Shown in pieces: positions 10,504-49,640 of a stretch of 64,000 nucleotides of DNA (position 1 is the first letter of the stretch; the number at the start of each line of letters is the position of its first letter). The notes beneath the pieces are model-generated. The model made no database searches. It was not told the origin of the DNA and saw only the letters and a list, made by a program, of their open reading frames with translations. The position numbers and the translations under genes are program-made. The stretch is from Halorussus gelatinilyticus (GTDB taxonomy: Archaea > Halobacteriota > Halobacteria > Halobacteriales > Haladaptataceae): NCBI RefSeq assembly GCF_023238445.1, contig NZ_CP096658.1:744001-808000 (forward strand), read 5' to 3'.

Positions 10504-10531
10504 CCGAGTCGTCTTTTGACTACCGGAAACG

Positions 10532-10858: not shown

Positions 10859-10914
10859 CTCTTCCGGAGAGTCGAATCCCGGGCGAATAATCCTTTCACC
10901 GACGCTCCCGACGG

Positions 10915-11758: not shown

Positions 11759-12082
11759 ATGGTCTCGGCCGCCACAGTCATCGGGTTCCTGCTCATCATG
11801 GTCGTCAACACCGTCCTCGCGGCGGTCTCCATCCGCTTCTTCCGGCTTCGGCTCTCGACCCAGTGGGGTGCCGTGGTGTACTCGGCGGTGTTCATCCCGC
11901 TGATGTACTTCGTCACGACCATCCTCCTCTCGGGGTTCGTCGGCTTCGGCGGGACCGGCGTCGAGGACCGGGGCACCGCGCTCATCGTGGTCTGGGTGAT
12001 TCCGTTCACGCTGGCGGTGTCGCTCGAACTGTTCTGGATGCCCGCGCCCGACGAGGTCGAACTGCCCGAGCAGACTGGGTGA
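11759..12082 (+). CDS. Small three-helix membrane protein
   Basis: A 107-residue protein with three hydrophobic helices: about 5-27 (TVIGFLLIMVVNTVLAAVS), 38-60 (GAVVYSAVFIPLMYFVTTIL) and 75-95 (TALIVVWVIPFTLAVSLELF). The C terminus is a short acidic tail (PAPDEVELPEQ). It is recognisable as a haloarchaeal conserved membrane protein but has no assigned function. The frame stays open upstream, but the ATG at 11759 is the first start directly before the first helix and avoids a low-complexity Arg-rich extension. No operon partner is evident. Confidence 0.75.
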   Translation: MVSAATVIGFLLIMVVNTVLAAVSIRFFRLRLSTQWGAVVYSAVFIPLMYFVTTILLSGFVGFGGTGVEDRGTALIVVWVIPFTLAVSLELFWMPAPDEVELPEQTG

Positions 12083-12433
12083 GAGACGATTTACGAAGTC
12101 CCGCCCGCTCGCTACGAATCAGATACGACTTCGAAGTGACCGTGAGAACCGTAACGACGACCGCCTCGGAAGCCCCCGCCCGCTCGCGGTCGCTGGCCGA
12201 CATATCTTCGGCCCGGCACTCGCTTCGCTCGGGCCACGCCTCGATAGCGGGTCGGCCAGACGACCACGGTAAACGCGAGCGGTCGGCCCCTTCATCCCTC
12301 CACGGTGGACTGGTCGGCCGAGCTTTTCCGGTGGATTGGTCGGTTAAACGCGACGGTGAACCTGTCAGGTTGCGCGACGGGATTTCGAGGAGACCCCTAT
12401 CGCTTTTCCCGCCTTGGCCCGTACCTCGCGGAC
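12083..12433. other. Intergenic region before ribose-1,5-bisphosphate isomerase
   Basis: No credible gene was found. GGCCCG and CGGGCC flank a 14-base loop near 12210-12240, and two near-identical TGGA(C/T)TGGTCGG strings occur about 25 bases apart near 12307-12345. Neither can be given a role. Confidence 0.4.
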
Positions 12434-33261: not shown

Positions 33262-34464
33262 ATGGAAGACTCGTCTAAGTCGGATTTTGACGATATATTC
33301 GAGACAGGAGATATCTTTGCAGATCGTGAACTACTTCGTGTCGGCCACGTTCCGAAACTAAACCGAGTTGTCGGCCGTGATGAAGAGGTGCGAGAAGTCG
33401 GTAGTGCACTCGGACCGGCGACTCAAGGTGGACCACCAGAGACGATAATTATATACGGAAAAACTGGGACTGGAAAGTCCCTCGTGACGAGGTGTACGAC
33501 CCGGGAAGCTCATCGGAAAGCTCTTGAGAACAGTAGCTCGTTCCAATATTCCTACATCGACTGTTCGGACTATCAGACCGAAGCCAAAGCCAGTCGAGAA
33601 ATGGCGCAGGAGTTATGTGAGAATCTTGGTGCAGATGTCAATGTTCCCCGTGTCGGAATAGCGTCATCAGATTATCGTGATATCGTTTGGGAGTTGCTTG
33701 ACGAACACGGGATCGAGTCCTACGTGGTCATCCTCGACGAAATCGATAAGCTCGAAAACAACGAGATTCTCCGTAGTCTCTCACGTGCACGCGAAAGCGG
33801 AAAATCTGATGCTCACGTCGGCGTGATTTGTATCAGTAACAAAATCGGATATCGGGATCGATTGAACGAGCGTATCGACTCTAGTCTTCAAGATAACGAA
33901 CTCTTCTTCCATCCGTACGACGCAAATCAGCTTCGCAACATCCTCGAAAACCGACGAGATGCGTTTACGGAAGGCGTCCTCGAAAGCGATGTGATACCCA
34001 AGGCTGCCGCTCTTGCTGCACAGGAACACGGTGACGCTCGAAAAGCAGTCGATATCCTCTATGAAGCGGGACGACTCGTGGAGAAGGCTGGCGATGAAAT
34101 GGTTACGGTCGAACACGTCGATGACGCGCAGACGAAGGCCGAAGTCAACCGCTTTCGAGAACTCATCAGCGGGACGACGCCCCACGTGAAACACGCACTT
34201 CGAGCATTAGCGTTACTTACAGAAAATACGACGCAGGATACGTTTCGGACGCACAAAATCTACGAAACGTACAAGCGATTAGTTCAACAAGAAGGCGGGG
34301 ATGTCCTCTCTGAAGACCGAATCTATCGGTTGCTCAAAGAACAGTCCTTCCTCGGAATCATCGAGAGCAACCATACTGGTGGCGGGTTAGGTGAGGGAAG
34401 CTACCTCGAACATCGACTCCTCGGTGATTCCCAAGTCGTCACCCAAGCCCTAACTGAAGAATAA
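33262..34464 (+). CDS. orc: Orc1/Cdc6 replication initiator
   Basis: A 400-residue AAA+ ATPase. Walker A is YGKTGTGKS (about 65-73), Walker B VVILDEIDKLE (about 155-165), sensor 1 near GVICISNKIGYRDRL, sensor 2 in the EHGDARKAVDILYEAGR segment, and a winged-helix domain from about 290 (FRTHKIYETYKRLVQQ). It binds origin repeats, which surround the gene on both sides. Codon use is AT-richer than neighbours, suggesting a plasmid or recently acquired origin. It is separated from aglB by 285 bases carrying more boxes. Haloarchaea usually have several Orc paralogues; which one this is cannot be told. Confidence 0.96.
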   Translation: MEDSSKSDFDDIFETGDIFADRELLRVGHVPKLNRVVGRDEEVREVGSALGPATQGGPPETIIIYGKTGTGKSLVTRCTTREAHRKALENSSSFQYSYIDCSDYQTEAKASREMAQELCENLGADVNVPRVGIASSDYRDIVWELLDEHGIESYVVILDEIDKLENNEILRSLSRARESGKSDAHVGVICISNKIGYRDRLNERIDSSLQDNELFFHPYDANQLRNILENRRDAFTEGVLESDVIPKAAALAAQEHGDARKAVDILYEAGRLVEKAGDEMVTVEHVDDAQTKAEVNRFRELISGTTPHVKHALRALALLTENTTQDTFRTHKIYETYKRLVQQEGGDVLSEDRIYRLLKEQSFLGIIESNHTGGGLGEGSYLEHRLLGDSQVVTQALTEE

Positions 34465-34472
34465 GCAACGCT

Positions 34473-34605
34473 CACTCGGTATGGGGTGTGTCCCCCCTAA
34501 ACGCTATTACACTCGTTGTGAGGTGTGCCTCGGGATGGTTCGCTCAATACACGGTGTACTAGTAAAACTCACCGTCTAGCACTACACTCGTTATCGGGTG
34601 TGTCT
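34473..34605. other. ORB-like boxes downstream of orc1/cdc6
   Basis: Three direct boxes: 34473-34492, 34510-34530 and 34585-34605, each CACTCG(T/G)T, 4-5 bases, GGTGTG(T/C)C. A weaker one lies at 34541-34558. All are in the same orientation as the boxes just before the gene. The block is copied, diverged, at 39998-40090. Confidence 0.75.
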
Positions 34606-34719
34606 GAGAAGCTTGATTCTCCACCAGTTCAGCGTAAAACCCACATACAATCGAATTTGTAAATAGACATAGTAGCGATAGTGCGCCAGAAAGAGTTGTC
34701 GTAAACGAGTGTCGTAGGG

Positions 34720-34727
34720 TTTATACA
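34720..34727 (+). promoter_or_regulatory. TATA box before aglB-like gene
   Basis: TTTATACA lies 23-30 bases before the ATG at 34750. A related TTTATCTG with similar flanks (CACGTTA, CAACCACCATGA) precedes the aglB remnant at 41738, showing that the promoter was duplicated with the gene. Confidence 0.65.
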
Positions 34728-34749
34728 CTATTCACGTTACGCAACCACC

Positions 34750-37134
34750 ATGAGTAGTGTACGCGAGGCGACCGAGGACCTCCTCGGGGAGAAACCCGAC
34801 CTCGAATCGGACCTCCGCGAGGTCCTCGCGGTAGACGAGCGCGCCGACGGCTGGGCATTCGACGACGTGCCCGTGGACTCCGGCGCCTTCGGCGAACTCG
34901 TCTCCCGCGACATCGTCGCCGAGAACGGGGACGGCTACGAAGTCGCCGACCCCGACGCGGTTCGGGCGAGCCTCGACGGAGACGCCGAAACCGTGGCCGA
35001 CGCGGACGCGAGCGGCCCGACCCTCCCGTCGCTCTCGCTCGAATCGCTCCCCTCGCTGTCGCGGCTCGAAGCGGGCGGACTCGCCGCCGCGCTGGCGTTC
35101 GTTCTCCTGATGCGAACGTACATCTTCCCGACCGTGTTCCGCGGCGAGTACGTCGTCCTCCCTTCGAACGACCCCTACTACTACCGCTACTGGGTCGAAC
35201 AGCTCTCGGCGGAGGCGGCCGGCGTCTTCGACTTCAGCGTCCTCTCGGGCCTGCCCGGTGCCGTGGCGAAGAGCGAACCGCTGATGGTCGGGACGCTCTG
35301 GTGGTTCACGAACCTTTTCGGCGGGGCCGACGCCGCCGGGCGGGTGCTGGCGTGGTACCCCGTCGTCTCGGCGCTCGTCGTCGCCGCGCTCGTCTACGCG
35401 CTCGCGGTCCGGGTCACCGACGACCGCCGGGTCGGTCTCGCCTCGGTCACCTTCCTCGCGGTAATCCCCGCGTTCGCCTACCGGACCGGTCTCGGGTTCG
35501 CCGACCACCACGCCTTCGACTACCTGTGGCTCGCGCTAACCGCGCTCGGACTGGTCTGGCTCTCGGACGTCGAGCGCGAGGACCTCTCCTCTCCTAAATC
35601 GTGGCTGGCCGCGACCGCGCTCGGCGTCGCGGTCGCCGGACAAGTGATGGCGTGGGAGGCCGGACCGCTCCTCGTCGGCGCAGTCGGCGTCTTCGCCGCT
35701 GTCCGGGCCGCCGCGGACGTGCGCGCCGACCGGTCGCCGCTCGCCGCGAGCGCGTCGCTCCTCGCCGGACTCGCGGTCGCCACCCTACTCTCGCACCTCG
35801 CGCACACCGGCTTCGGATGGCACACCGACGTAGTGGCCTACTCCCCGGCGCTGTTGCTCGTCGGAGTTCTCGCCGTCTCGCTTGCCGGCGAGGCGGTTCG
35901 GCGGGCGGGGATGCCCGCGTTCGTCCTCGGCGGAGCGGAGGTCGCGGGCGCACTGAGCGCGCTAGCGCTCCTCCAGTTCGTCCTGCCGACGTACGCGAAT
36001 CGGTTGTACCGTCAACTCGACTTCCTCCTGTTCAAATCCGGCGCGGCCGAGACTCAGTCTCTCTTCGCGGGCGGTCCGGCCGGATTCTTCATCGGCCCCA
36101 TTCTCGAACTCGGCTTCGCGTGGCTGCTCGCGGTGCCGACGCTCGCGCTGCTCTCGTGGCGAGCGTACCGACGCGACCACGTCCCGTGGCTGGTCGTCTG
36201 CACGTACGGCTGGTACTTCCTCGTGCTTGCGGCGTTCCAGCGCCGATTCGTCGGCGAACTCGCACCGTTCGCGGCGGTGTTGGCCGGTTACGGCTTCCTC
36301 GTGTTCGCCGCGAAGGTCGATTTGCTCTCGCAGTTCGGCTTCGGCGAGGACGACCCGCGAGCCGAGAACGATGCGGACGGTTCCACTCGACGCACGCTCG
36401 GACTCCCCGACAGAGGGACGGCCGCGACGCTCGCGGTTCTGCTGCTGTTTCTCGTCAGCGCGGGCGGCGTCCAGACCGCGGTCCGTCACCAACAGGTGAA
36501 GATTGTGGACGACAAATTCGAGGCCGCGACGTGGATAGACGGCTACGCAGAGCGACAGGGCTTGGAGTACCCGAACAACTACGTCTTGAGCAAGTGGGGC
36601 CGCAACCGGATGTACAACTACTTCGTCAATGGCGAGTCAAGGTCGTACGGCTTCGCGTATCGACGGTACGCACCGTTCCTCAGGTCATCGGACCCCGCGG
36701 CACAATATCAAAAGTTGCACGAAAAGGTCGGCTTCGTCGTGACGAAGAACGTCAATTTGAACGGGCGGGCCGCACCGAAGATCAACTACGCGAGATTCCA
36801 CAAGCGGTTCGGAAGCGCCGGACCGAACGGTGCCAGCGGTGCCGGCCACTACAAGGCGCTCTACGCGAGCGACGACGGGTCGGTGAAGGTGTTCTCGCTG
36901 GTGCCGGGCGCGAACGTCACCGGAACCGTCGGGGAAAACGAGACGGTAACCCTCTCGAAGAAAGTCGAAATCGAGGGCGCGTCGTTCACGTATCGACGAA
37001 GCATTACGGCGGGTCCCGACGGCGACTTCTCGGTGACGGTTCCCTACGCGGGGACGTACTCCGTCGGCAACCGGACCGTCGAAGTTCCCGAGAGCGCCGT
37101 CGAGAACGGCGGTAACGTCACCGTCGGCGCGTAG
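34750..37134 (+). CDS. aglB: STT3/AglB-like oligosaccharyltransferase lacking WWDYG
   Basis: A 794-residue GT-C enzyme. Residues 1-95 form a soluble N-terminal domain with a winged-helix look, followed by about 12-13 membrane helices (about 105-520) and a C-terminal extracellular domain ending in beta-rich sequence with NVT/NET sequons. STT3 features: SNDPYYYRYW (first acidic motif, D about 140), GFADHHAFD (second acidic motif) and SGAAETQS (flexible-loop Glu). The sequon-binding WWDYG is absent; the equivalent place has SKWGRNRMYNYFVNGES. It probably transfers lipid-linked glycan to Asn of surface proteins, or is a related transferase. Just downstream, 133 bases away, is the epimerase. It lies next to orc1/cdc6. 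Confidence 0.85.
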   Translation: MSSVREATEDLLGEKPDLESDLREVLAVDERADGWAFDDVPVDSGAFGELVSRDIVAENGDGYEVADPDAVRASLDGDAETVADADASGPTLPSLSLESLPSLSRLEAGGLAAALAFVLLMRTYIFPTVFRGEYVVLPSNDPYYYRYWVEQLSAEAAGVFDFSVLSGLPGAVAKSEPLMVGTLWWFTNLFGGADAAGRVLAWYPVVSALVVAALVYALAVRVTDDRRVGLASVTFLAVIPAFAYRTGLGFADHHAFDYLWLALTALGLVWLSDVEREDLSSPKSWLAATALGVAVAGQVMAWEAGPLLVGAVGVFAAVRAAADVRADRSPLAASASLLAGLAVATLLSHLAHTGFGWHTDVVAYSPALLLVGVLAVSLAGEAVRRAGMPAFVLGGAEVAGALSALALLQFVLPTYANRLYRQLDFLLFKSGAAETQSLFAGGPAGFFIGPILELGFAWLLAVPTLALLSWRAYRRDHVPWLVVCTYGWYFLVLAAFQRRFVGELAPFAAVLAGYGFLVFAAKVDLLSQFGFGEDDPRAENDADGSTRRTLGLPDRGTAATLAVLLLFLVSAGGVQTAVRHQQVKIVDDKFEAATWIDGYAERQGLEYPNNYVLSKWGRNRMYNYFVNGESRSYGFAYRRYAPFLRSSDPAAQYQKLHEKVGFVVTKNVNLNGRAAPKINYARFHKRFGSAGPNGASGAGHYKALYASDDGSVKVFSLVPGANVTGTVGENETVTLSKKVEIEGASFTYRRSITAGPDGDFSVTVPYAGTYSVGNRTVEVPESAVENGGNVTVGA

Positions 37135-37267
37135 CAGTCGGTAGACTGTTCCGTAGTCGACGTAACGTGTACGACCGGGTAACCGACTAGTAAACACCGG
37201 ATTCCGAAGATTCGGCCTGTAAGCTACCCAGTGGCTTTTTGCTATTCGCGGTTGCGAACAGTAGGTG

Positions 37268-38254
37268 ATGCGAATACTCGTTACCGGCGGTGCCGGGTTC
37301 ATCGGCGGCCACCTCGCGGAAGGGTTCGCCAGCGACGGCCACGACGTGGTCGCGCTCGACAACTTCGAGCCGTTCTACGACACGGGAATCAAGGAGCACA
37401 ACGTCGAGGCGGCGCGCGAAGCGGCCGCGGAAGGCGACGGCAGTTACGAACTGGTCGAAGGCGACGTGCGCGACGAGGAAGTCGTCGGCGAGCAGGTCGC
37501 CGACGCCGACGTAATCTTCCATCAGGCCGCCCAAGCCGGCGTCCGGACCAGCGTCGAGGAGCCCCAGAAGGTCAACGACATCAACGTCTCGGGCACGCTC
37601 AACGTGCTGGAGGCCGCCCGAAGTTCGGACACCGAGCGCGTCGTCGTCGCGTCGTCGTCGTCGGTGTACGGTAAACCCGAATACCTGCCCTACGACGAGG
37701 ACCACCCGAACACGCCGGTCAGCCCCTACGGCGCCTCGAAGGTGGCTCAGGAGCAGTACGCGCGCGTCTACAACGAGGTCTACGGCCTGCCGACCGTCTC
37801 GTTGCGGTACTTTACGGTGTACGGCCCGCGGATGCGCCCGAACATGGCCATTAGCAACTTCGTCTCGCGGTGCATGAACGGCGAGCCGCCGGTCATCTAC
37901 GGTGACGGCACCCAGACGCGGGACTTCACCTTCGTCGGCGACGTGGTGGAAGCGAACCGGACGCTTCTTGACACCGACGCGGCTGACGGCGAGGCGATGA
38001 ACGTCGGGAGTACCGACAACATCGAGATTCGGGTCTTGGCTGAGGAGATACGCGACCAACTCGCGCCCGACCTCGAACTGGAGTTCGGCGAGCGCAACGA
38101 CGCCGACGCCGAGCATACGCACGCCGACATCTCGAAGGCCAACGAACTCATCGGCTACGAACCGACAACGACCATCCGAGAGGGCGTCAAGCAGTTCACC
38201 GACTGGTACCGGGCAAATCGGGAGTGGTACGAACCGCTCGTCCGGAACTCCTGA
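37268..38254 (+). CDS. NAD-dependent sugar-nucleotide epimerase (extended SDR), copy 1
   Basis: A 328-residue extended SDR. NAD motif GGAGFIGG (7-14), DNFEPFYD, HQAAQAGVR, catalytic SSSVYG with Y154-x3-K158 (SPYGASK), and RYFTVYGPRMRPN, YGDGTQTRDFTFV. The pattern is that of UDP-glucuronate 4-epimerase/UDP-glucose 4-epimerase enzymes. The ATG at 37268 is chosen over the GTG just before it; the second copy starts at the equivalent codon. By hand alignment about 47 of 328 residues differ from copy 2. It is the last gene of an aglB-epimerase unit and supplies a UDP-sugar. Confidence 0.93.
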   Translation: MRILVTGGAGFIGGHLAEGFASDGHDVVALDNFEPFYDTGIKEHNVEAAREAAAEGDGSYELVEGDVRDEEVVGEQVADADVIFHQAAQAGVRTSVEEPQKVNDINVSGTLNVLEAARSSDTERVVVASSSSVYGKPEYLPYDEDHPNTPVSPYGASKVAQEQYARVYNEVYGLPTVSLRYFTVYGPRMRPNMAISNFVSRCMNGEPPVIYGDGTQTRDFTFVGDVVEANRTLLDTDAADGEAMNVGSTDNIEIRVLAEEIRDQLAPDLELEFGERNDADAEHTHADISKANELIGYEPTTTIREGVKQFTDWYRANREWYEPLVRNS

Positions 38255-38258
38255 CTGG

Positions 38259-38820
38259 TTACTTAGATTTCCTGAAGATGTCGAGGGCAAGTTCAGTTCT
38301 AGTGCCAAGGACGACCTTGTCTGGGTCCCGGAAGTCCGCTACCGCGCTCCCCTTCCGGAGGAACTTGGGGTTCATCGCCATGTGGAAGTCTTCGTCGAGC
38401 GTCTTCCCAGAGGTATCGGCGGGTATCGGGGCGACGGTCTCCTCGGTGGTGCCGGGAACGACCGTGGACTTGACCACGACTAGATGCGAGTCGTCGGAGG
38501 ATAGCGCCTCACCGAGCGACTGCGCGCCCGCTTCCATGATGTCGAGATCGATGTCCTCGCGGGACGGTGTCGGTAGTGTGAGGAACGTGACGTCTGTTTC
38601 CCGAACTGCAGCATAGTCGGTGGTCGCCCGCAGTCGGCCCCCCACCGTATTCGGCGACGAGGTCGTCGAGGCCGAGTTCGTGAATCCGAGCGTCGGCCGC
38701 GTTGATGGAGTCGACAAGTTGCTCGTCGATATCGATGTTCGTCACCTCGTGACCATAGTCGGCGAAGCAGGCGGCGACAGTGGTGCCGACGTAGCCGCTC
38801 CCGACGATGCTGACGTTCAT
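38259..38820 (-). pseudogene. aglM: Truncated, frameshifted UDP-glucose/UDP-sugar 6-dehydrogenase (AglM-like)
   Basis: From the ATG at 38820 the protein reads MNVSIVGSGYVGTTVAACFAD and LGLDDLVAEYGGG, then leaves frame in a run of six G (plus strand C, about 38637-38642); the +1 frame continues GRLRATTDYAAVRETDVTFL, VVKSTVVPGTT and MNPKFLRKGSAV to a stop at 38259. Removing one G restores an unbroken frame. The product ends after about 187 residues, while family members have about 430, so the catalytic-Cys domain is missing. The start matches aglM/UDP-glucose dehydrogenases. It is a dead copy, or the frameshift could be a sequencing error in a gene that is truncated anyway. Confidence 0.88.
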
Positions 38821-39040: not shown

Positions 39041-39772
39041 GGCACTGTCTAGTTAAGGAGCGAGCAGGTCAAAGAGCTAGTTGTTCATGCTACTCTCAAA
39101 CCTGCTCAGAGAGACGTTAGATACCGCGACTCTTGAATGTTGGCAGCGGGAGCGGACGGCGACGCCCGTCAGGGCGTTCGCCGTCCGGCTCCACGCTGCT
39201 GGCTGTTCGCTCAGAGAAACAGCAGCGATTCTTGAGCTCCTCGGCGTTGAACGGACGCATGGAGCGGTTTGGAACTGGGTGCATCGGCTGGCTGACAGCG
39301 TCGGCGACCCGCCGTCGGCGACGCCGACGCGGGTCGCGGTCGACGAGACCGCTGTCCGGATTAACGGCGAGTGGTCTTGGGTGTACGCTGCAATTGACCT
39401 CGAAACGAAGGTGCTACTTGATGTCGCCGTGTTTGGTCGGCGTGGCACCGATCCAGCGGCCGCGTTCCTCCACGGTCTCACCCAGAAACACGATTGTTCA
39501 GAAACCGTGTTTCTGGTCGATGGTGCAGGCTATCTGACTGCCCTCTCTCGATTAGGATTGAGCGGTCACCTTGAATATGTTGACCGAAACCACATCGAAA
39601 AGTGGTTTCACACCCTCAAAATGAGAATTGACCGCTTCCATTCGTCGTGGGTGGGCAGTCGGCCGAGCGTCCGCCAGTGGCTTGCATCGTTTGTTCATTA
39701 CTATAACTTCCAGCGACCGCACCAAGCACTCGATGAACGCACGCCAGTCGAGGAGGAAAACTAGACAGTGCC
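39041..39772 (+). mobile_element. IS6-family insertion sequence, 732 bp, complete
   Basis: Perfect 14-bp inverted ends: GGCACTGTCTAGTT at 39041-39054 and AACTAGACAGTGCC at 39759-39772. An 8-bp target duplication flanks it and one intact transposase fills it. Both its size and its ends match the haloarchaeal IS6 elements. The intact ends, TSD and ORF suggest a recent insertion into an already decaying cdc6 copy. Confidence 0.95.
39087..39764 (+). CDS. tnpA: IS6-family transposase
   Basis: A 225-residue DDE transposase. N-terminal HTH (AAGCSLRETAAILELLGVERTH in pieces), then the catalytic triad: Asp in RVAVDETAVRI, Asp in FLVDGAGYL, and Glu in DRNHIEKWFHTLKMR, with HYYNFQRPHQAL at the end typical of IS6. 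The ATG at 39087 is preferred over a TTG two codons earlier. The frame is complete, so the element may still be able to move. Confidence 0.95.
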   Translation: MLLSNLLRETLDTATLECWQRERTATPVRAFAVRLHAAGCSLRETAAILELLGVERTHGAVWNWVHRLADSVGDPPSATPTRVAVDETAVRINGEWSWVYAAIDLETKVLLDVAVFGRRGTDPAAAFLHGLTQKHDCSETVFLVDGAGYLTALSRLGLSGHLEYVDRNHIEKWFHTLKMRIDRFHSSWVGSRPSVRQWLASFVHYYNFQRPHQALDERTPVEEEN

Positions 39773-40179: not shown

Positions 40180-40203
40180 TATAGCAATATCCCAAATCGG
40201 GTG

Positions 40204-41604
40204 ATGGTCTCCGGGTTCCGGTATCGAGTGGTAAGCGTCGTCGGCGCGGCGTTCATCGCGGCTATCGCCGTCTTGATGGCGAATGCCTCCTCTTTACAGA
40301 CTCTGTTTACGACTGCGGTCCCGGTGTTCCGGCGACTGCCACCAACCGTGTTGACCGGGAACAAACTCACTTTAGTCGTCGTGACGACGACGCTCGTGGT
40401 CGTCGGCAGTTTGATGCCGCTGTTCAAACCCAGGCCCCGACGGATACTCGACACAATCCTCCTCGCCCAGCGGCGCACGGTCACCGCCTGCCTCGCGCTC
40501 GCCACTATCGGGTACTTCGACTATACATATCGGCTTCCCCGATCTACGCTCGTACTGGCGACAATCGGCCTTCTTATCGGCCTTCCGGCGTGGTTTGTCG
40601 CAATTCGCCGACGGCCGGTCGAAAAAGAGCGAGCGGTCATCGTCGGTGACGACTCCGAAGAGATTGCCGACGTGCTGGACGAAATCGACGTACCGGTTGT
40701 CGGCTACGTTTCACCGCCGAGTCCGTACTACACCGGCCACAATGGAGTTTCGAGCGAGCGTGCCGTCACCGACGGCAGCGGTGAGGCGTTGCTGGAGGAC
40801 TTGGACTGTCTCAGCGGTCTTTCGCGTCTCGAGGAAGTGCTTGTCGATTATAATGTGGATACGGTGGTGCTGGCATTCGCCCAGCCCGATCGGGCGGAGT
40901 TCTTCGGCGCGCTCGATACCTGTTACGAGCACGGCGTCGACGCGAAGGTCCACCGGGAGCACGCGGACGACGTGCTGACGACGACTACGCGCGGGGACGA
41001 GGTGCTCGTCGACGTCGAACTCGAACCGTGGGACTGGCAGGATTACGTGTTCAAGCGGGGGTTCGACGGGGCGTTCGCTTCGGTTGGGTTGCTGGCGTTT
41101 GCGCCGTTCCTAGTGGTGATTGCAGTCGCAATCAAAATCGACAGTCCTGGTCCGATTCTATACAGTCAGGAGCGGACGGCGGAGTTCGGGGACACGTTTA
41201 CCGTCTACAAATTCCGGACGATGATTCCCGAGGATGAGTCGGTGATGCCCATCGAAGACGAGGCGAACGACCGCATCACCCGCGTCGGGCGCTTCCTCCG
41301 TAAGACGCATCTTGACGAAGTGCCCCAACTCTGGTCGATTCTCGTCGGCGAGATGAGCGTCGTCGGACCTCGGGCTGTCTGGACCGACGAAGAGCAACTG
41401 CTGGAGGAGACGACCGACATGTGGCGCAAGCGCTGGTTCGTCAAGCCAGGACTGACGGGGTTAGCGCAGATCAACGACGCCAAGAGCACGGACCCAGCCG
41501 CGAAACTCCGATACGATCTCGAATACATCCGCCGCCAGTCGTTCTGGCTCGACGTGAAAATCGTGGTTCGGCAAATTTGGAAGGTATTTGCCGACGCCTT
41601 GTAG
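40204..41604 (+). CDS. Polyprenyl glycosylphosphotransferase (WbaP/WcaJ-like)
   Basis: A 466-residue initiating enzyme for a lipid-linked glycan. About four to five helices lie in the first 140 residues, followed by a CoA-binding-like soluble segment (ERAVIVGDDSEEIADVL), and then the phosphoglycosyltransferase module from about 275: KRGFDGAFASVGLL, a re-entrant membrane helix, KIDSPGPILYSQERT, VYKFRTM and RKTHLDEVPQLWSILVGEMSVVGPR with KPGLTGLAQIN. It moves a sugar 1-phosphate from UDP-sugar to dolichyl phosphate. The ATG at 40204 is chosen over the adjacent GTG. A glycan pathway begins here, after the second cdc6 remnant. Confidence 0.93.
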   Translation: MVSGFRYRVVSVVGAAFIAAIAVLMANASSLQTLFTTAVPVFRRLPPTVLTGNKLTLVVVTTTLVVVGSLMPLFKPRPRRILDTILLAQRRTVTACLALATIGYFDYTYRLPRSTLVLATIGLLIGLPAWFVAIRRRPVEKERAVIVGDDSEEIADVLDEIDVPVVGYVSPPSPYYTGHNGVSSERAVTDGSGEALLEDLDCLSGLSRLEEVLVDYNVDTVVLAFAQPDRAEFFGALDTCYEHGVDAKVHREHADDVLTTTTRGDEVLVDVELEPWDWQDYVFKRGFDGAFASVGLLAFAPFLVVIAVAIKIDSPGPILYSQERTAEFGDTFTVYKFRTMIPEDESVMPIEDEANDRITRVGRFLRKTHLDEVPQLWSILVGEMSVVGPRAVWTDEEQLLEETTDMWRKRWFVKPGLTGLAQINDAKSTDPAAKLRYDLEYIRRQSFWLDVKIVVRQIWKVFADAL

Positions 41605-41737: not shown

Positions 41738-41947
41738 ATGACTGACGTACGCGAGGCGACAGACGGAGTCCTCGCGGAGAAACAAAACCTCAAATCAGAC
41801 TTGCGTGAAGTTCTCTCTGTCGACGAGCGCACCGACGGATGGTCCTTCGACGACGTGCTACTCGACTCGGGGACGTTGGGCGAGTTTCCTTGTAGAAGCT
41901 ATTCTAATTTCTTAGCCTCTATTGACAATTTTTTCTCTGAACAGTGA
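41738..41947 (+). pseudogene. 5' remnant of aglB
   Basis: The first 49 codons match the N terminus of the full gene at 34750: VREATDGVLAEKQNLKSD and VLSVDERTDGWSFDDVLLDSG, with several substitutions. After GTLGEF the frame leaves homology and ends with 20 unrelated residues. The missing 740 residues include all membrane helices. The promoter is also duplicated. It marks the right part of the duplicated unit. Confidence 0.88.
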
Positions 41948-42006: not shown

Positions 42007-42029
42007 ACTCGGTGAGTGTCCACGTGTAT

Positions 42030-42779
42030 ATGAAAGCCGTCGTGCTAGCTGCCGGAGAAGGAACCCGACTTCGACCCCTAACTGAGGACAAGCCGAAGGG
42101 AATGGTCGAAGTGGACGGAAAGCCGATCCTCAACCACTGCTTCGATCAACTGGCCGAACTGGGGGCCGACGAGTTCGTGGTTGTAGTGGGATACCGCAAG
42201 CAGGATATCATCGAATACTACGGTGACGAGTATGACGGTATCCCCATCACGTACGCTCACCAGCGTGAGCAGAAGGGACTTGCTCATGCATTGCTCACGG
42301 TTGAGGAACACATCGACGACGACTTCATGCTCATCTTGGGCGACAACATCTTTGACGCGAATCTAGGTGACGTGGTCAAACGCCAACGGGAGGACCGCGC
42401 GGACGCGGCCTTCCTCACGGAGGAAGTTCCGTACGAGGAGGCGAGTCGATACGGGGTGTGTGATACCAACGACTACGGTGAGATTACCAACGTGGTTGAG
42501 AAACCCGAGAACCCGCCGTCGAACCTCGTGATGACTGGCTTCTACACCTTCACGCCCGCAATCTTCCATGCATGTCATCTGGTCCAACCGTCGAACCGCG
42601 GCGAGTACGAGATCAGCGAGGCCATCGACCTGCTCATCCAGAGCGGCCGGACGATAGATGCAATTCGGATGGACGGTTGGCGAGTAGACGTCGGATATCC
42701 CGAAGACCGGGACCGGGCAGAAAGCCTCCTTCAGGGTGAGGAGCCAGAGCCAGAGGTAGCGGAAGTGTCGTCCGACTGA
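42030..42779 (+). CDS. Sugar-1-phosphate nucleotidyltransferase (AglF/RmlA-like)
   Basis: A 249-residue enzyme: VLAAGEGTRLRPLTEDKPKGM (motif in two parts), ILNHCFDQL, YAHQREQKGLAHAL, the metal-binding LGDNIFD, and VEKPENPPS. Active form likely makes UDP-glucose, dTDP-glucose or similar. The ATG at 42030 starts MKAVVLAAGEG; the GTG six codons upstream is not needed. The gene is 53 bases before epimerase copy 2, so the two likely share a transcript and pathway. Confidence 0.93.
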   Translation: MKAVVLAAGEGTRLRPLTEDKPKGMVEVDGKPILNHCFDQLAELGADEFVVVVGYRKQDIIEYYGDEYDGIPITYAHQREQKGLAHALLTVEEHIDDDFMLILGDNIFDANLGDVVKRQREDRADAAFLTEEVPYEEASRYGVCDTNDYGEITNVVEKPENPPSNLVMTGFYTFTPAIFHACHLVQPSNRGEYEISEAIDLLIQSGRTIDAIRMDGWRVDVGYPEDRDRAESLLQGEEPEPEVAEVSSD

Positions 42780-42832: not shown

Positions 42833-43819
42833 ATGAGAATACTCGTCACCGGTGGCGCGGGATTCATCGGCGGCCATCTCGCCGAAAAGTTCAGCCGCGA
42901 CGGCCACGACGTAGTTGCGTTTGATAACTTCGAGCCGTTCTACGACGTAGGTATCAAAGAACACAACGTCGAGACGGCGCAGAGAGCTGCCGCGGAAGGC
43001 GATGGAAGCTACGAACTGATAGAGGGCGACCTCCGCGATGAGGAGGTAATTAGCCAGTACGTCGCCGAAGCTGACGTTATCTTCCATCAAGCGGCTCAGG
43101 CCGGCGTCCGTGCCAGCGTCAAGGAACCTCAGAAGGTCAACGATATCAACGTCTCGGGCACGCTGAACGTGCTGGAAGCAGCCCGGGATTCGGAGACCGA
43201 ACGAGTGGTAGTGGCAAGCTCTTCATCGGTGTACGGCAAACCCGAGTATCTGCCCTACGACGAGAATCACTCGACGACGCCCGTGAGTCCCTACGGTGCC
43301 TCAAAACTTGCCCAGGAGCAGTACGCGCGAGTCTACAACGAGGTCTACGGCCTGCCAACCGTCTCGCTGCGGTACTTCACGGTGTACGGCCCGCGGATGC
43401 GCCCCAACATGGCCATCAGCAACTTCGTCTCGCGATGTCTTAACGGCGAGCCACCGGTCATCTACGGCGACGGGACTCAGACGCGAGACTTCACCTACAT
43501 CGACGACGTGGTTGAGGCTAATCGAACACTCCTCACAACCGACACCGCCGACGGTGAGGTCCTGAACATCGGTAGTACTGATAACATCGAGATTCGGACG
43601 CTGGCCAAGGAGATACGTGACCAACTCTCCCCGGACCTTGAATTGGAGTACGACGAGCGCAACGACGCCGACGCCGAACACACCCACGCCGACATCTCGA
43701 AAGCCAACGACCTGCTTGGATACGAACCCACGATGACCATCCGCAAGGGCGTCGAAGAGTTCGCCGACTGGTACCGGGAGAACCGAGATTGGTACGAACC
43801 GCTTGTTCGTAGCTCGTGA
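42833..43819 (+). CDS. NAD-dependent sugar-nucleotide epimerase, copy 2
   Basis: A 328-residue extended SDR almost the same as copy 1 at 37268 (about 86% identical by hand count). The same features are present: GGAGFIGG, Y154-x3-K158 in SPYGASK, and YGDGTQTRDFTYID. Differences lie mainly in residues 19-82 and 270-326. Both copies are complete and codon-clean, so both probably work. It follows the nucleotidyltransferase and precedes a GT4, giving a compact glycan operon. Confidence 0.93.
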   Translation: MRILVTGGAGFIGGHLAEKFSRDGHDVVAFDNFEPFYDVGIKEHNVETAQRAAAEGDGSYELIEGDLRDEEVISQYVAEADVIFHQAAQAGVRASVKEPQKVNDINVSGTLNVLEAARDSETERVVVASSSSVYGKPEYLPYDENHSTTPVSPYGASKLAQEQYARVYNEVYGLPTVSLRYFTVYGPRMRPNMAISNFVSRCLNGEPPVIYGDGTQTRDFTYIDDVVEANRTLLTTDTADGEVLNIGSTDNIEIRTLAKEIRDQLSPDLELEYDERNDADAEHTHADISKANDLLGYEPTMTIRKGVEEFADWYRENRDWYEPLVRSS

Positions 43820-43902: not shown

Positions 43903-45027
43903 ATGCGGATTCTCCGAGTCGCACAGAAAGTGTATCCGGACGTAAAGGGTGGCGGACCGTACCACGTCCACGCAATGAGTCGGGATCAAGCCGATCGGGG
44001 CCACGATGTGACTGTACTGACTGTCTCTGACGACGACTCGAAACCCCGTCGAGAGGAGCGTGACGGGTACACCGTGGTTCGTCGGAAGCCGACAGCCGAA
44101 CTGCTCGGAAACGACATCTCGAGTGGAGTTGCCAAGTTCTTGGCCAGTGCGGGCGACTATGACGTAATCCACGCCCATTCACATCTATACTTCTCGACGA
44201 ATCTCGCAGCCCTGAAGCGGCGACTCGGAGACATCCCGCTGGCAATCACGAACCACGGCCTCTACTCACAGAACGCCCCCGAGTGGGTGTTCGACGCTTA
44301 CCTTAAAACCGCAGGCCGTTGGACGTTCGATAGTGCAGATGTCGTGTTGTGTTACACTGAGGAAGACCGAGAGCGGGTGCAGGGGTTTGGCGTCAACACC
44401 GATATTGAAGTCGTGTCGAATGGTATCGACCAGACACGATTTACACCAGAGGGGCCAAGAAGCGATCTCGTGGATTCCGACGGGCCGGTCGTACTCTTTG
44501 TCGGGCGGTTGGTTGATGGCAAGCGGCCGCAGGACGCAGTTAGGGCGTTCGCAGGTGTCCACCGAGAGCATACCGACACCGAACTATACCTTTGTGGCGA
44601 CGGCCCGCTACACGACAAACTACAGACGCAAGCGGCCGAGCTCGGCGTCTCGGAGGCAGTCACGTTCCTCGGTCACGTCTCCTACGACGAGATGCCGAAA
44701 GTGTACCGATCGGCGGACATTCTGGTACTTCCGAGTCGGGCAGAGGGACTTCCCCGGACCGTGTTGGAGGCGTTCGCGGCCGAGACCCCGGCCGTAACAA
44801 GTGACCTCGAACATGTCGCGCCGGTCGTTCGCCACGCCGGGAAAACGTATCCCACCGGAAACACCGATGCGTTTGAGGACGCGCTCAGCGAACTACTCTC
44901 GAACCCTAAGCGTGCGAAGTCACTCGGTGAGGATGGACGCAAACTGGTCAACTGCAGGTTCAGATGGGAGGAGACTGTCACTAAGACAACTGCCGCGCTC
45001 GGTCGCATCTCGAAGGTAAAGAACTAA
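43903..45027 (+). CDS. Family 4 glycosyltransferase
   Basis: A 374-residue GT-B enzyme. The N-terminal domain has GGPYHVHAMSRDQADRGHDVTV and the HAHSHLYFS segment. The C-terminal nucleotide-sugar domain has LFVGRLVDGKRPQDAV, LGHVSYDEMPKVY and the E-x7-E motif PSRAEGLPRTVLEAF. No membrane helices. Likely adds a sugar to the lipid-linked oligosaccharide begun by the phosphoglycosyltransferase at 40204. The start codon at 43903 begins MRILRVAQKVYP. Confidence 0.93.
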   Translation: MRILRVAQKVYPDVKGGGPYHVHAMSRDQADRGHDVTVLTVSDDDSKPRREERDGYTVVRRKPTAELLGNDISSGVAKFLASAGDYDVIHAHSHLYFSTNLAALKRRLGDIPLAITNHGLYSQNAPEWVFDAYLKTAGRWTFDSADVVLCYTEEDRERVQGFGVNTDIEVVSNGIDQTRFTPEGPRSDLVDSDGPVVLFVGRLVDGKRPQDAVRAFAGVHREHTDTELYLCGDGPLHDKLQTQAAELGVSEAVTFLGHVSYDEMPKVYRSADILVLPSRAEGLPRTVLEAFAAETPAVTSDLEHVAPVVRHAGKTYPTGNTDAFEDALSELLSNPKRAKSLGEDGRKLVNCRFRWEETVTKTTAALGRISKVKN

Positions 45028-45052: not shown

Positions 45053-45316
45053 ATGGACGTAGTACGTACCGTCCGCGAATCGAACATCTATGCGGTCGTA
45101 TCGACGTTGCGCCGGTGGGCACGGGGAAGCACAGTACTATCGATGCTTACTCGGGAGGAGGTCCTTCAGGGCCTTCTCGCCATCGTATTGATCGTCAGTA
45201 CCACCCGTGTCGCTCTCACCAACCTCAACGCGGCAGTGAAATTTCTGAGTTTCGTCGTCCTCTTTCTATTAGTGGTCGTCATCGCGTTGCCGTTCACCGA
45301 ACCATCGTCGGAGTGA
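45053..45316 (+). CDS. Small two-helix membrane protein
   Basis: An 87-residue protein with a polar N terminus, then two hydrophobic helices, about 37-52 (VLQGLLAIVLIVSTT) and 63-82 (VKFLSFVVLFLLVVVIALPF). No family is recognised. It is 25 bases after the GT4 stop on the same strand, so it is probably co-transcribed. Its last 48 bases overlap the end of the convergent membrane-protein gene. Confidence 0.6.
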   Translation: MDVVRTVRESNIYAVVSTLRRWARGSTVLSMLTREEVLQGLLAIVLIVSTTRVALTNLNAAVKFLSFVVLFLLVVVIALPFTEPSSE

Positions 45317-46441
45317 CCGACGCCGCCGTTCGAGTACTGGCGAGGCGAACACGACCAGCAGGAACATGAACGGAATTCGGTGTCTGACGGTGGTTCCGAA
45401 GTTGGAGTCGATAAGTCCGTATCCCACGATTCCGCCGAGATAGACGGTCAGTAGGAGGGCCAAGACGCTCTCATTGGTCTCACACGCGGCCAGAGACCGA
45501 TACGCGGCGACAGTTAGGACAACCAATAACGGTAGTTCGAGTATAGCCAACAAGTCGAACGGAGAGTTTACGTGTAATGGAAACGGAGCGAACTGGAAAA
45601 ACAGGGCGCGAACCGGTGCGAGGAGTAGAACATCGGTCCACGAATCGTAGGTCACACCGTCAAGATACACTGCACTTCCCGACGCCCGAGACGTGAGAAT
45701 ATCGTTGAGGGAAGCCAACGGGAATTCGTGAGTGAAGAGCAGGAAACCGACCACTCCCGTCGGGAGGACGGCCAGCATCAACGTCACAAACGAAATTTTG
45801 TGTCGGGCGACAGTGTCAAGGACCGACACGATTCCAGCGGCAATACTACCGACGAGGAGGAGGAGTGCCAACTCGGTGCGAAGAAGCAAGAGGCAACCGA
45901 CTAGTGGAATTACAGCCAACCCGTGCCAGTATCGAGCGCGGGTGACGACGTTAGTGACGAGGACGAGAGTGACAAACAGCAGTAGTACCGAGAGAGTGTC
46001 TCGCATCGGTAACGTCAGAAAAAGAAACGGAAGAGGTGCGAACAACGCGAGTGCGGCGACGCCATCCGTCGAGTCGATGGCAGAGAGATACAACCTCCGA
46101 GATAGTGAAAACATCGGAATCGGGATTAAGACAGCCAGCAGGCCGTTGATTAGCGAGAGAGTCGTCGGACCGTCTCCGAAAATTACATACAGGAATCCCT
46201 GAAAGGCACCGAACGCATTCACGCTGACCGAATTCGACGGTAGCGAACCGGATGCTACCTGACTTGCAGCAGTGTGGAATGTCGTGATATCCCACTGATA
46301 TGGAAGGGCCGGGATGACGAAAAGTGCTAGAAGGACGTGGCCGACAAGTGCGGCCCCACTTAGATGTCGGTACGTGCGACTCTGCGACCGGGTGGCAAAC
46401 GCGAAAAGTAACAGAATGCTTAGTACCGTAACGAGTACCAT
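45269..46441 (-). CDS. Polytopic membrane protein (Wzy-like or GT-C-like glycan enzyme)
   Basis: A 390-residue protein with about ten to eleven membrane helices, beginning with VLVTVLSILLLFAFAT. Between helix 2 and 3 lies a soluble loop WDITTFHTAASQVASGSL where acidic Asp is placed like the first loop of GT-C enzymes. A late loop holds YDSWTDVLLLAPVRALFF. No exact family is visible; location in a glycan locus and the topology suggest a polymerase (Wzy) or lipid-sugar-dependent transferase. Ends in an Arg-rich tail. It is convergent with the preceding small gene. Confidence 0.75.
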   Translation of the reverse strand: MVLVTVLSILLLFAFATRSQSRTYRHLSGAALVGHVLLALFVIPALPYQWDITTFHTAASQVASGSLPSNSVSVNAFGAFQGFLYVIFGDGPTTLSLINGLLAVLIPIPMFSLSRRLYLSAIDSTDGVAALALFAPLPFLFLTLPMRDTLSVLLLFVTLVLVTNVVTRARYWHGLAVIPLVGCLLLLRTELALLLLVGSIAAGIVSVLDTVARHKISFVTLMLAVLPTGVVGFLLFTHEFPLASLNDILTSRASGSAVYLDGVTYDSWTDVLLLAPVRALFFQFAPFPLHVNSPFDLLAILELPLLVVLTVAAYRSLAACETNESVLALLLTVYLGGIVGYGLIDSNFGTTVRHRIPFMFLLVVFASPVLERRRRSLRRWFGERQRDDDH

Positions 46442-46491: not shown

Positions 46492-48393
46492 TCACTCGGC
46501 CAACAGACCTCGACTTCTCATCCGTTGCAGCCACCGAGCGAACACGTAGACGCTCCAGAGGAAACGAGTGTGATCGCGTGAACCTTGGGCATGCTCCTCA
46601 AAGATGTCGAGAACCGCAGGTACGTCAAGGAGGTCGGTTTCGGTCGTTTCGACCGTTCGACGGAAATCCGAGGCGAACTCGTGTTTCAACCACTCCCCTA
46701 TAGGAACGTCGAAGCCTTGTTTCGGTCGGTCAAGTATCGCATCTGGGAGCATATCGTTGAAGGCTCGCTTCAGGACGCGCTTGCGGTCACGGGAGGTGAT
46801 TTTGTAACTGGTCGGCAAACTCATCGCGTATTCGACGACATTCGTGTCAAGGAAGGGAACTCGGACTTCCAACGAGTTGTACATACTCGCGCGGTCTACC
46901 TTTCGGAGCATCTGATTAGGCAGTGAGTGAAAGGTGTCGACAGCCTGGATTCGGCTGAGTGAGTCACGCCTCGTTCGTGGGAGGAACGATTCCTTGTCGT
47001 CATGATGGTGTAAGAGACTCTCCCGGCCCGCTACGACGGGAGACGCTTCGTCGAAGGCAGCCGTAGTTTCTTCGTCTGGGAGTCGAATCCACTCGAAATG
47101 TCGGTCAGAGACCGACTCAATTCCACCACGAGTGAACTTCTGGGCTTTCCTTGCGACCTCTCCGAGTTTACTCCCGCGCGAAGCAGGGAGTCGTCTAACC
47201 AACGGCTCAACCAATCGATGTCGGACAGGACCAGGAACTGCCCGGTAGTAGCGTGAGTAGTACTCACCGCGATACTTGTTGTATCCGGCAAACAGTTCGT
47301 CCGCGCCGTCGCCCGAAAGAGCAACTTTCACCTCGTTGCTCGTCTTGCGGGAGACGATATAGGTCGGTAGGAGTGATGGATCGGCGAACGGCTCCCCCAT
47401 CGCGTCGACTACCTCCGGGATGACCTCCCGAACGTCCGTCGGAGACACCGTGAACTCGTGATGGGCCGTGTCGTGGTAGTCAGCGACTCTTCGGGCGGCC
47501 CACGCCTCATCGAATAGTGATTCGTCGAATCCGACAGTAAAAGTCCGAATGGATGAGTCGGATAGTTCTGACATCGTTCCGACCACAATACTGGAGTCGA
47601 TACCGCCACTCAGAAAGGCACCTAGTGGTACGTCGCTCTGTAACCTGCGTTCGACGGCCCGTTCGACGTTCGAACGTAACTTCGTCGCTGCTGCCTCTAT
47701 CGATGATGGTGATGACGGCGAAACCGAGGGCGTGTAGAATTGTTCGTGACGGATCCCTTCTGCAGATATCACCGCCATGGTTCCTGGTTGAAGCTTCGTG
47801 ACATTCTCGAACGGGGTATGTGGTGCAGGAACGAATCCAAATGCGAAGTATCGAGCGACGGCAGCTCGGTCGAGGCCGCCAGCGTCCACATCGCTTTCAA
47901 GCACCGTCGAGAGCTCGGAACCGAACGCGACTCGACTGTCATCGTTCGAAGCGACGACAAGAGGTTTGATGCCCATTCGGTCGCGTGCGACGACGACTCG
48001 CCGCCGGTCGGCGTCCCAGAGGGCGAACGCGAACATGCCGTCGAGGCGTTTGACGAACTCGGGGCCTTCCTCCTCGTAGAGGTGGACGAGTACCTCCGTG
48101 TCGGTGTCGGACTCGAAGCGATGGCCAGCGCGCTGGAGCGTCTCTCGAAGTGAGCGGTAGTTGTATATCTCCCCATTGAAGACGACGGCGACCGACCCGT
48201 CCTCGTTGAATATCGGCTGTCGCCCGCCGTCGAGGTCGATAATACTGAGACGGCGGTGAGCCAACCCGACTGGACCGTCACGGTAAATACCGCTGTCGTC
48301 GGGTCCTCGATGGGTCTGACAGTCGTTCATCCGACGGAGAGTCTCCTCGTCGGGCTTGTCGTTCGGATCGAAGACGCCTGCAATGCCACACAT
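46492..48393 (-). CDS. asnB: Asparagine-synthetase-type amidotransferase, copy 1
   Basis: A 633-residue class II glutamine amidotransferase. N-terminal nucleophile MCGIAGVFD (Cys2), NGEIYNYRSLR and DTEVLVHLYEEEG form the glutaminase; LSGGIDSSIV is the ATP pyrophosphatase P-loop, followed by FTVGFDESLFDE and ALSGDGADELFAGY. Either it makes asparagine from aspartate, or, as often in polysaccharide loci, amidates a uronic acid residue. The presence of two copies in one glycan locus favours the second for at least one. Spacing of 50 bases to the preceding membrane protein on the same strand suggests an operon. Confidence 0.92.
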   Translation of the reverse strand: MCGIAGVFDPNDKPDEETLRRMNDCQTHRGPDDSGIYRDGPVGLAHRRLSIIDLDGGRQPIFNEDGSVAVVFNGEIYNYRSLRETLQRAGHRFESDTDTEVLVHLYEEEGPEFVKRLDGMFAFALWDADRRRVVVARDRMGIKPLVVASNDDSRVAFGSELSTVLESDVDAGGLDRAAVARYFAFGFVPAPHTPFENVTKLQPGTMAVISAEGIRHEQFYTPSVSPSSPSSIEAAATKLRSNVERAVERRLQSDVPLGAFLSGGIDSSIVVGTMSELSDSSIRTFTVGFDESLFDEAWAARRVADYHDTAHHEFTVSPTDVREVIPEVVDAMGEPFADPSLLPTYIVSRKTSNEVKVALSGDGADELFAGYNKYRGEYYSRYYRAVPGPVRHRLVEPLVRRLPASRGSKLGEVARKAQKFTRGGIESVSDRHFEWIRLPDEETTAAFDEASPVVAGRESLLHHHDDKESFLPRTRRDSLSRIQAVDTFHSLPNQMLRKVDRASMYNSLEVRVPFLDTNVVEYAMSLPTSYKITSRDRKRVLKRAFNDMLPDAILDRPKQGFDVPIGEWLKHEFASDFRRTVETTETDLLDVPAVLDIFEEHAQGSRDHTRFLWSVYVFARWLQRMRSRGLLAE

Positions 48394-48542: not shown

Positions 48543-49640
48543 ATGTCGAAAACCGAGGTTTGGTACCTCATCGGCACCTTGGCGGTTGGTGGGACCGAGC
48601 GGACGCTCGTCGATCTGGTCAACAACCTGAACCGGACGCGCTTCGAGCCGACCGTGTGGACGATAACGGAACCCGGACCGCTCGCGTCCGAACTCAGCGA
48701 TGTACCGGTTCGCTCGCTCGGTGCTACTGGTAAGCACGACGCTCGCGCTCCAGTTCGCTTCTTCCGCGCACTTCGCTCCGAACGCCCTGACGTACTCCAG
48801 TCATTCCTGTTCTTCGACAACACGCTGGCTCGACTGGCGTCACTGTTCGCTCAGGACGTGACCGTCGTTACGGGCGTGCGAGAGGTGCCTGACGACCCAA
48901 GTCTCGTCCGGAGTGCGGTTCGACGCGTCACGCTCCCGCTCTCGGACAGGGTCGTGTCGAACTCGGCCGCAGGAGCAACGTTCGTCATCGAACGCGGTGC
49001 CGACGAACGCGACGTGTCCGTGGTCCGAAACGGCCGGGACTTGAGCGTATATGAATCCGCAACCGCTTCCGAGGACGTGCGAGCTGGCATCGGCGTCCCG
49101 GAAGATGCACCGCTCGTCGGGACGGTCGGTCGGTTGGTCGAGCGGAAGGGCCATCACGACCTGCTCGACGCGTGGCCGACGGTACTTGACCACCACCCGG
49201 ACGCACACCTCGTCATCGTCGGCGATGGGCCCGAGAGAGAGGCCCTCGAACGACACATTCGTCGAATCTCCAGCAAGAACACCGTCCACCTGACGGGGAC
49301 GCGAGACGACGTGCCGGAGCTACTCGACGCGTTCGACGTGTTCGCGTTCCCTTCTCACTACGAGGGGCTTCCGGGAGCACTCCTTGAAGCGATGGCGGCC
49401 GGACTCCCCATCGTCACGACCCCGGTAGATGGAAACGCGGAACTGGTTCACGACGGTCGAAGTGGACGCCACGTCCCGGTCCGAGACCCTAACGCGCTCG
49501 CCGAGGAGTTAATCGACTTGCTGTCGAATCCCGACGACGCTGAAGCGCTCAGAACACGGGCCAAACAGCGTGCTAACGCCAACTTCAGCCTCGACACAAT
49601 GGTCTCGGAGTTCGAGGCCCTGTACGACGCACTCGACTAA
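48543..49640 (+). CDS. Family 4 glycosyltransferase
   Basis: A 365-residue GT-B enzyme starting MSKTEVWYLIGTLAVGGTERTL (glycine-rich acceptor loop LAVGGTERTL). The donor domain has VGTVGRLVERKGHHDLLDA, LTGTRDDVPELLDAF and the E-x7-E motif PSHYEGLPGALLEAMA. The ATG at 48543 is used, since an upstream extension is basic and not conserved-looking. It is divergent from asnB copy 1 and overlaps the end of asnB copy 2 by four bases convergently. Confidence 0.93.
   Translation: MSKTEVWYLIGTLAVGGTERTLVDLVNNLNRTRFEPTVWTITEPGPLASELSDVPVRSLGATGKHDARAPVRFFRALRSERPDVLQSFLFFDNTLARLASLFAQDVTVVTGVREVPDDPSLVRSAVRRVTLPLSDRVVSNSAAGATFVIERGADERDVSVVRNGRDLSVYESATASEDVRAGIGVPEDAPLVGTVGRLVERKGHHDLLDAWPTVLDHHPDAHLVIVGDGPEREALERHIRRISSKNTVHLTGTRDDVPELLDAFDVFAFPSHYEGLPGALLEAMAAGLPIVTTPVDGNAELVHDGRSGRHVPVRDPNALAEELIDLLSNPDDAEALRTRAKQRANANFSLDTMVSEFEALYDALD

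Follow-up and report, generated by a model that had tools for sequence, protein, structure and literature searches.

A 64,000-nucleotide stretch of the Halorussus gelatinilyticus genome (GCF_023238445.1, NZ_CP096658.1, positions 744,001–808,000 of the forward strand; hereafter the window, whose own numbering is used for its features) encodes an AglB-like oligosaccharyltransferase without the WWDYG motif (34750–37134, +; 794 residues from ATG to stop). We use the name STT3b for the conserved family of this open reading frame (ORF) and identify it as a candidate second oligosaccharyltransferase beside canonical AglB in about half of the sampled haloarchaea. Taking the reading as a whole, we think it probable that STT3b moves glycans linked to dolichol pyrophosphate (DolPP) to an asparagine at the N-terminus of mature surface proteins without a Ser/Thr sequon. 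In Halobacterium, it would be a candidate for the missing enzyme acting on Asn-2 of the S-layer protein. The case draws on computed homology and fold, retained catalytic residues, an altered motif, linkage to a polyprenyl-phosphate sugar-1-phosphate transferase (PGT) and an association with N-terminal asparagines.

An earlier note on this DNA had described the product as an STT3/AglB-like enzyme, and this is borne out by Pfam matches to the STT3 N-terminal domain (PF02516; 31.8 bits, cut-off 24.5) and to the AglB_L1 peripheral domain at residues 720–787 (36907–37110, +; PF18079; 40.2 bits, cut-off 23.6), as well as by its predicted AglB fold. With the NCBIfam profile for haloarchaeal AglB (archaeo_STT3, TIGR04154) it reaches 171.7 bits, far under the cut-off of 450, and we attribute the neglect of the family to this weak score together with the missing WWDYG; searches of open-licence papers in PubMed Central (PMC) turned up none that names the family. 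When the order was searched with the window protein, 69 of the 146 haloarchaeal genomes in the sample gave a long match extending over much or the whole of its length; in three of these (G104, G117, G060) the match is in two pieces, and in G099 there is only a 351-residue frame. The search for a canonical AglB that the earlier note had suggested found one elsewhere in the 3.67-Mb haloarchaeal host genome (C1:3449486–3450772, −), carrying SWWDYGHWI; WWDYG is likewise present in 14 of 14 other canonical aglB loci. Several family members have frames of 959–999 residues instead of about 790 (L066 at 10001–12943, L055, L059, L065, L070, L079, L089 and L119), and L066, the sole long frame scanned, bears a C-terminal Laminin_G_3 lectin-like domain.

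The AlphaFold model of the window protein (predicted local distance difference test, pLDDT, 93.0; predicted template modelling score, pTM, 0.86) has the AglB fold over residues 109–794; structure prediction against archaeal AglB had been proposed in the earlier note. Its best solved match by Foldseek is Archaeoglobus fulgidus AglB (7e9s, E 9.3e-23), and structural comparison with 3waj from the same species gives Z 38.6 at 3.8 Å over 597 aligned residues; the AglB C-terminal domain alone (3wai) matches with Z 13 at 2.2 Å over 153 residues. The folds of ArnT, PMT and C-mannosyltransferases match too, at lower Z, as would suit a GT-C glycosyltransferase using a single sugar linked to dolichol phosphate (DolP) or transferring to Ser/Thr; however, AglB stands well over ArnT (Z 25.5), and this together with the coupling to PGT described below makes such an activity very unlikely. 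Among the options that the earlier note had left side by side, a different acceptor is now best supported, and a separate GT-C ligase of different structure is disfavoured and ranks lower, since the AglB-type fold and C-terminal domain are present.

For motif conservation we used an alignment of 86 STT3b sequences. A scan of named genomes had furnished 139 relatives, of which 80 were kept. In 76 of these the matched stretch reads through without a stop; the remaining four contain one in frame and were excluded from the alignments. The first acidic motif, N140-D141 (35167–35172, +), is present in 86/86 sequences, as is R499-F500 at the place of QVRF (36244–36249, +), and the loop glutamate E434, at the place of the TIxE Glu (36049–36051, +), in 85/86. 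In the second acidic motif, D252-H253-H254 (35503–35511, +), H253 is invariant (86/86), the first position is D in 70, E in 15 and H in 1, and the third is H in 61 and R in 16. The acidic motifs and loop Glu are thus kept, as had been claimed from the window sequence. Against the nearest relative, a nonsynonymous divergence (dN) of 0.092 lies well below the synonymous one (dS, 0.464), indicating purifying selection, and with the kept catalytic residues this rules out a degenerate gene. An inactive relative retained for a structural role would fit the variation of the second acidic motif in one sub-clade, but the retained residues, the purifying selection and the tight gain and loss of STT3b with PGT leave this highly improbable. 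In that sub-clade (L041, L046, L048 and relatives) E-H-R replaces D-H-H, and the metal site may differ.

None of the 76 open relatives holds WWD, so the absence of WWDYG, likewise noticed earlier, is no sequencing accident. At the corresponding place the window protein has S-K-W-G-R-N-R-M-Y-N (residues 614–623; 36589–36618, +), located by profile alignment, model and the 86-sequence alignment; the nearest element singled out before, KWGRNRMYNYF, is present at residues 615–625. In a profile alignment of STT3b with 14 canonical haloarchaeal AglB sequences (probability 100, E 3e-46), VLSxWGxN falls on VMSWWDYG, and in the model a strand at 612–613 precedes a helix that begins at W616. The earlier note had allowed that this element might take the place and contacts of WWDYG with only its sequence changed; as to the place, profile alignment and model agree that it does. 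The family consensus is S-x-W-G-x-N-R-x-Y-N, with W616 in 84/86 and both R620 and N623 in 86/86; the position of the WWD Asp is Gly in 64/86, and that of the first Trp is mostly Q/E/R/K. Given the shared place, the element has retained the second Trp but neither the first Trp nor the Asp, and goes on to an invariant R..N. The strict motif is fitted by 69/76 open relatives; the other seven all keep the Arg, and the terminal N of R-x-[YH]-N is plainly kept in six, the seventh (L129) having R-M-Y-N after an altered motif start. At the place of the DK/MI-type motif, in a region that aligns poorly, canonical haloarchaeal AglB reads approximately DWKMA and STT3b approximately GYVVT by eye.

The donor is suggested by the genomic company of STT3b. 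Downstream of it in the window lies a PGT of the Bac_transf family (40201–41604, +; PF02397, 197.6 bits), a family whose enzymes make pyrophosphate-linked carriers. Over the 146 genomes, both genes are present in 67, STT3b only in 2, PGT only in 28 and neither in 49 (Fisher 2.5e-16), such that PGT is found in 67/69 genomes with STT3b versus 28/77 others. By genus the corresponding counts are 31, 1, 11 and 14 (p 6.6e-6), and across the 12 genera in which STT3b is variable the two genes agree in 40/45 genomes, versus a permuted mean of 24.9 and 0/20000 permutations reaching the observed value. They are separated by at most 500 bp in 12/67 genomes and by at most 20 kb in 44/67, whereas canonical AglB lies within 20 kb of PGT in 0/34 genomes with known position (in 16 of these 34 it is on another contig than PGT). 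Among named loci with long flanks, PGT is found within 10 kb in 37/66 STT3b loci versus 0/21 aglB loci, the latter coming from the sampled genomes, so that the two sets are not matched by species. By the same comparison, relatives of the NAD-dependent nucleotide-sugar epimerase that follows STT3b in the window (37265–38254, +; Pfam) occur in 40/66 versus 1/21, and nucleotidyltransferases, represented by a sugar nucleotidyltransferase (42012–42779, +; Pfam NTP_transferase), in 32/66 versus 0/21. Relatives of glmS (amino-sugar synthesis; 56715–58502, −; named from sequence, with a homologue adjoining STT3b in the Halobacterium genome) and of the BacA/UppP polyprenyl-diphosphatase (60964–61806, −; PF02673, 168.8 bits) are each found in 11/66 versus 0/21, which is suggestive only (p 0.059 for each), and PGF-CTERM proteins in 6/66 versus 0/21, too few to weigh. 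From the linkage to PGT, glmS and UppP, we infer that a DolPP-linked glycan is the donor of STT3b.

These features recall an activity of Halobacterium salinarum that has lacked an assigned gene. According to passages of a 2010 review (PMC2952790), Asn-2 of its S-layer protein bears a repeating-unit glycan that is built on dolichol pyrophosphate and blocked by bacitracin, replacement of Ser-4 by Val, Leu or Asn leaves glycosylation of Asn-2 going, and more than one oligosaccharyltransferase was suspected, yet one gene only had been found (citing Zeitler 1998). A passage of PMC6591318 (2019) treats the part of AglB in transferring the DolPP glycan to Asn-2 as still uncertain, and one in PMC3871713 (2013) states that a novel oligosaccharyltransferase may act in Haloferax volcanii and perhaps also in H. 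salinarum. The enzyme described in these passages is an activity without a gene, whereas STT3b is known from sequence; they would share the DolPP donor, suggested for STT3b by PGT and UppP, an acceptor at the second mature residue that does not require Ser/Thr, and a candidate gene close to that of the S-layer protein.

We located this gene through genome G064, which we take to be H. salinarum or a very close relative because, apart from the first residue, its bacteriorhodopsin shows full identity to PDB 1m0k across 260 aligned positions, and because it encodes four rhodopsins. This bacteriorhodopsin (L138:71-110) deviates at its very first residues only, near a contig end, as if by an insertion at the gene start. 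The genome has a canonical AglB with WWDYG plus STT3b (C1:932302–934623), which is separated by 3.3 kb from the gene of the S-layer protein and has glmS, two nucleotidyltransferases and a PGT behind it. STT3b is present in 4/13 genomes of this genus, and G113 from the same genus has a further partial match whose 97 bits are on a par with canonical AglB. Cleaved at the site published for Halobacterium, the G064 S-layer protein would mature to A-N-A-D; for the laboratory Halobacterium strain, we take the mature start to be A-N-A-S. An Asn-Ala-Ser sequon is named in the title of a work that PMC2952790 cites. A table in PMC2880973 lists VNG0001H, VNG0002G (yvrO, an ABC ATPase) and VNG0003C of strain NRC-1 consecutively, which fits the kinds of genes beside the G064 STT3b; no STT3b tag was seen. 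More broadly, an S-layer match scoring above the TIGR04216 cut-off is present in 16 STT3b genomes; in 4 of these, representing 3/6 genera, distances read from coordinates place it within 25 kb of STT3b (binomial p 6.7e-5 by genus).

Asn-2 of Halobacterium led us to compare mature N-termini in genomes with and without STT3b. The set comprised large surface glycoproteins listed by TIGR04216 with frames of about 600 residues or more, the rows being picked by hand (104 loci, with 77 proteins parsed and 23 loci without a parse), and an N-terminal Asn was scored when it came immediately after the signal peptide's final AxA, or one Val later. Such an Asn is found in 24/46 proteins from genomes with STT3b versus 0/31 from those without (Fisher 1.4e-7), in 22/36 versus 0/23 by genome (4.2e-7) and in 10/16 versus 0/14 by genus (2.7e-4), p-values that are descriptive because the rows were hand-picked and the parser was revised once the data had been seen; the stricter first parser gave 16/44 versus 0/29. 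Within Halobacterium, the N-terminal Asn is found in G064 and G095 and in 0/9 proteins of STT3b-free species. Ser or Thr stands at +2 of the N-terminal Asn in 6/24 cases, which is about background (0.09–0.29 by position).

Two further explanations turn on these data. STT3b might transfer the DolPP glycan to N-x-S/T like any ordinary oligosaccharyltransferase, with a motif whose sequence has merely drifted: its element sits at the place of WWDYG in profile and model, keeps the second Trp in nearly all members, and belongs to an AglB fold. Nevertheless, the Asp is mostly replaced by Gly and the first Trp mostly by Q/E/R/K, 18/24 of the STT3b-linked N-terminal asparagines lie outside N-x-S/T, and Ser-4 replacement is tolerated according to the passages of PMC2952790, so that we regard drift as unlikely. 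Alternatively, the DolPP glycan might go to a non-protein acceptor such as a glycolipid or exopolysaccharide, in the manner of an O-antigen ligase, as would fit its polysaccharide-type surroundings, which include PGT, a flippase and genes for nucleotide sugars, and the lectin-like LamG domain on at least one member; the AglB-type fold and C-terminal domain, the S-layer linkage in half of the genera assessed and the N-terminal Asn association speak against this, and we consider it rather improbable.

Several observations weigh against transfer to an N-terminal Asn on a DolPP donor, besides the descriptive standing of the p-values. In STT3b genomes 22/46 proteins are without N-terminal Asn. The S-layer protein beside STT3b in Halobacterium sp. 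CBA1126 starts QAGNIDD, the main S-layer proteins of the host's genus have the mature start ADVQRGG or DVQRGG (ADVQRGG in the host itself), and only 3/8 surface proteins encoded within the 80 named STT3b loci obey the N-terminal Asn rule. The stronger proposition that every S-layer protein adjoining STT3b starts with Asn is rejected by these same starts and loci. On the donor side, 28 sampled genomes have PGT without STT3b, G043 and G095 have STT3b without PGT, and relatedness inflates the genome counts; the E/R for D/H exchange in the second acidic motif of one sub-clade might also mean changed catalysis. Another host surface protein, missed by the parser, reads AAANHSTSAD.

The N-terminal region noted earlier as winged-helix-like receives support from structure, and has a counterpart in another machinery. 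Modelled alone (pLDDT 91), it consists of two helices, a bridge residue, a helix, two strands and a helix; the closest structures are for the most part winged-helix domains (Z ≤7.1), and a Foldseek search with the isolated domain found nothing below E 0.3. Residues 1–78 (34750–34983, +) match proteins of about 300 residues in other genomes, of which six were examined (32–50% identity) and two scanned by Pfam, both being EMC3_TMCO1; hhalign of this segment against the N-termini of these haloarchaeal EMC3/TMCO1 insertases gives a probability of 98.9, E 1e-17 and 35% identity over 78 columns. Only this domain is shared with these members of the archaeal Oxa1 superfamily, as the EMC3_TMCO1 insertase domain itself was not found in STT3b by Pfam. 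The shared domain may dock STT3b at the export site.

Put together, PGT would place a sugar-1-phosphate on dolichol phosphate, and the resulting DolPP glycan would be extended and then flipped. STT3b would pass it to an Asn at the extreme N-terminus of exported surface glycoproteins (mature (A/V)-Asn-...), regardless of the residue two places on. The W-x-x-N-R-x-Y-N element would stand in for the Ser/Thr-reading WWD pocket, perhaps gripping the new N-terminus, and the N-terminal domain shared with insertases may keep STT3b at the site of export, the point at which the N-terminus of a protein emerges first. In its most far-reaching form, which we offer tentatively and hold to be somewhat less likely than not, this proposal describes a class of oligosaccharyltransferase in about half of haloarchaea that reads a freshly cut (A/V)-Asn N-terminus and not an internal sequon, is held at the export site by the insertase-shared domain and uses a pyrophosphate-borne glycan. 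The analysis gives a candidate gene, donor pathway and acceptor rule for the sequon-tolerant, DolPP-dependent Asn-2 glycosylation of Halobacterium; if true, STT3-type Asn glycosylation is not always in need of a sequon, and a Halobacterium puzzle dating from 1998 could be explained.

Relative to AglB of A. fulgidus (PDB 3waj/5gmy/7e9s) and haloarchaea, STT3b has the same GT-C fold, acidic motifs, loop Glu, RF and AglB_L1 domain, and differs in the absent WWDYG, the extra winged-helix-like N-terminus, the score far under the haloarchaeal AglB cut-off and the linkage to PGT, which canonical AglB does not show. AglB-independent transfer in haloarchaea is also known from the Agl15 pathway of Haloferax volcanii (PMC8241124). 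STT3b is, however, present in 0/15 genomes of the genus that we take as Haloferax, from its S-layer protein matching PDB 7ptp, which rules it out as the missing enzyme of that pathway and agrees with the statement, in a passage of PMC3871713, that AglB is the sole STT3 homologue of H. volcanii. A plasmid replication protein, by contrast with the S-layer protein, had not singled out Haloferax among the genomes.

The window also records a history of rearrangement. A remnant of a second STT3b copy (41738–41896, +; the first 53 residues, 64% identical) lies 133 bp behind PGT, which is the site of the intact gene in related species (G136, G130). In the window, the intact copy precedes PGT by 3 kb, and the interval holds a broken UDP-glucose dehydrogenase (38259–38820, −; an N-terminal fragment only, in two overlapping ORFs) and an adjoining insertion sequence (IS) transposase (39081–39764). 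This arrangement likely arose by local duplication with recombination. In G095 a piece of the N-terminal part of STT3b (G095:C1:214004-214499) lies between two S-layer genes, and the intact copy is about 48 kb away, so STT3b may once have stood beside S-layer genes there. A promoter scan of 34450–34800, with a tool not meant for archaea, was empty.

The remainder of the locus is of polysaccharide type, with a second nucleotide-sugar epimerase (42833–43819, +; by likeness to that at 37265), a GT4 glycosyltransferase (43903–45027, +; Pfam) and a Wzx-type flippase (54666–56126, −; Pfam Polysacc_synt). A 390-residue hydrophobic protein without a Pfam match (45269–46441, −) is Wzy-polymerase-like by position, with relatives in 2/66 STT3b loci. 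Two divergent glutamine-hydrolysing asparagine synthases (46492–48393, − and 49637–51490, −) are perhaps sugar-modifying amidotransferases. Elsewhere in the sample, PGT is present in all ten genomes of one genus (g8) and STT3b in none, and another transferase may serve PGT there. Near the start of the window, a 556-residue protein (2094–3764, +) contains many repeated ETT/MAAEE stretches.

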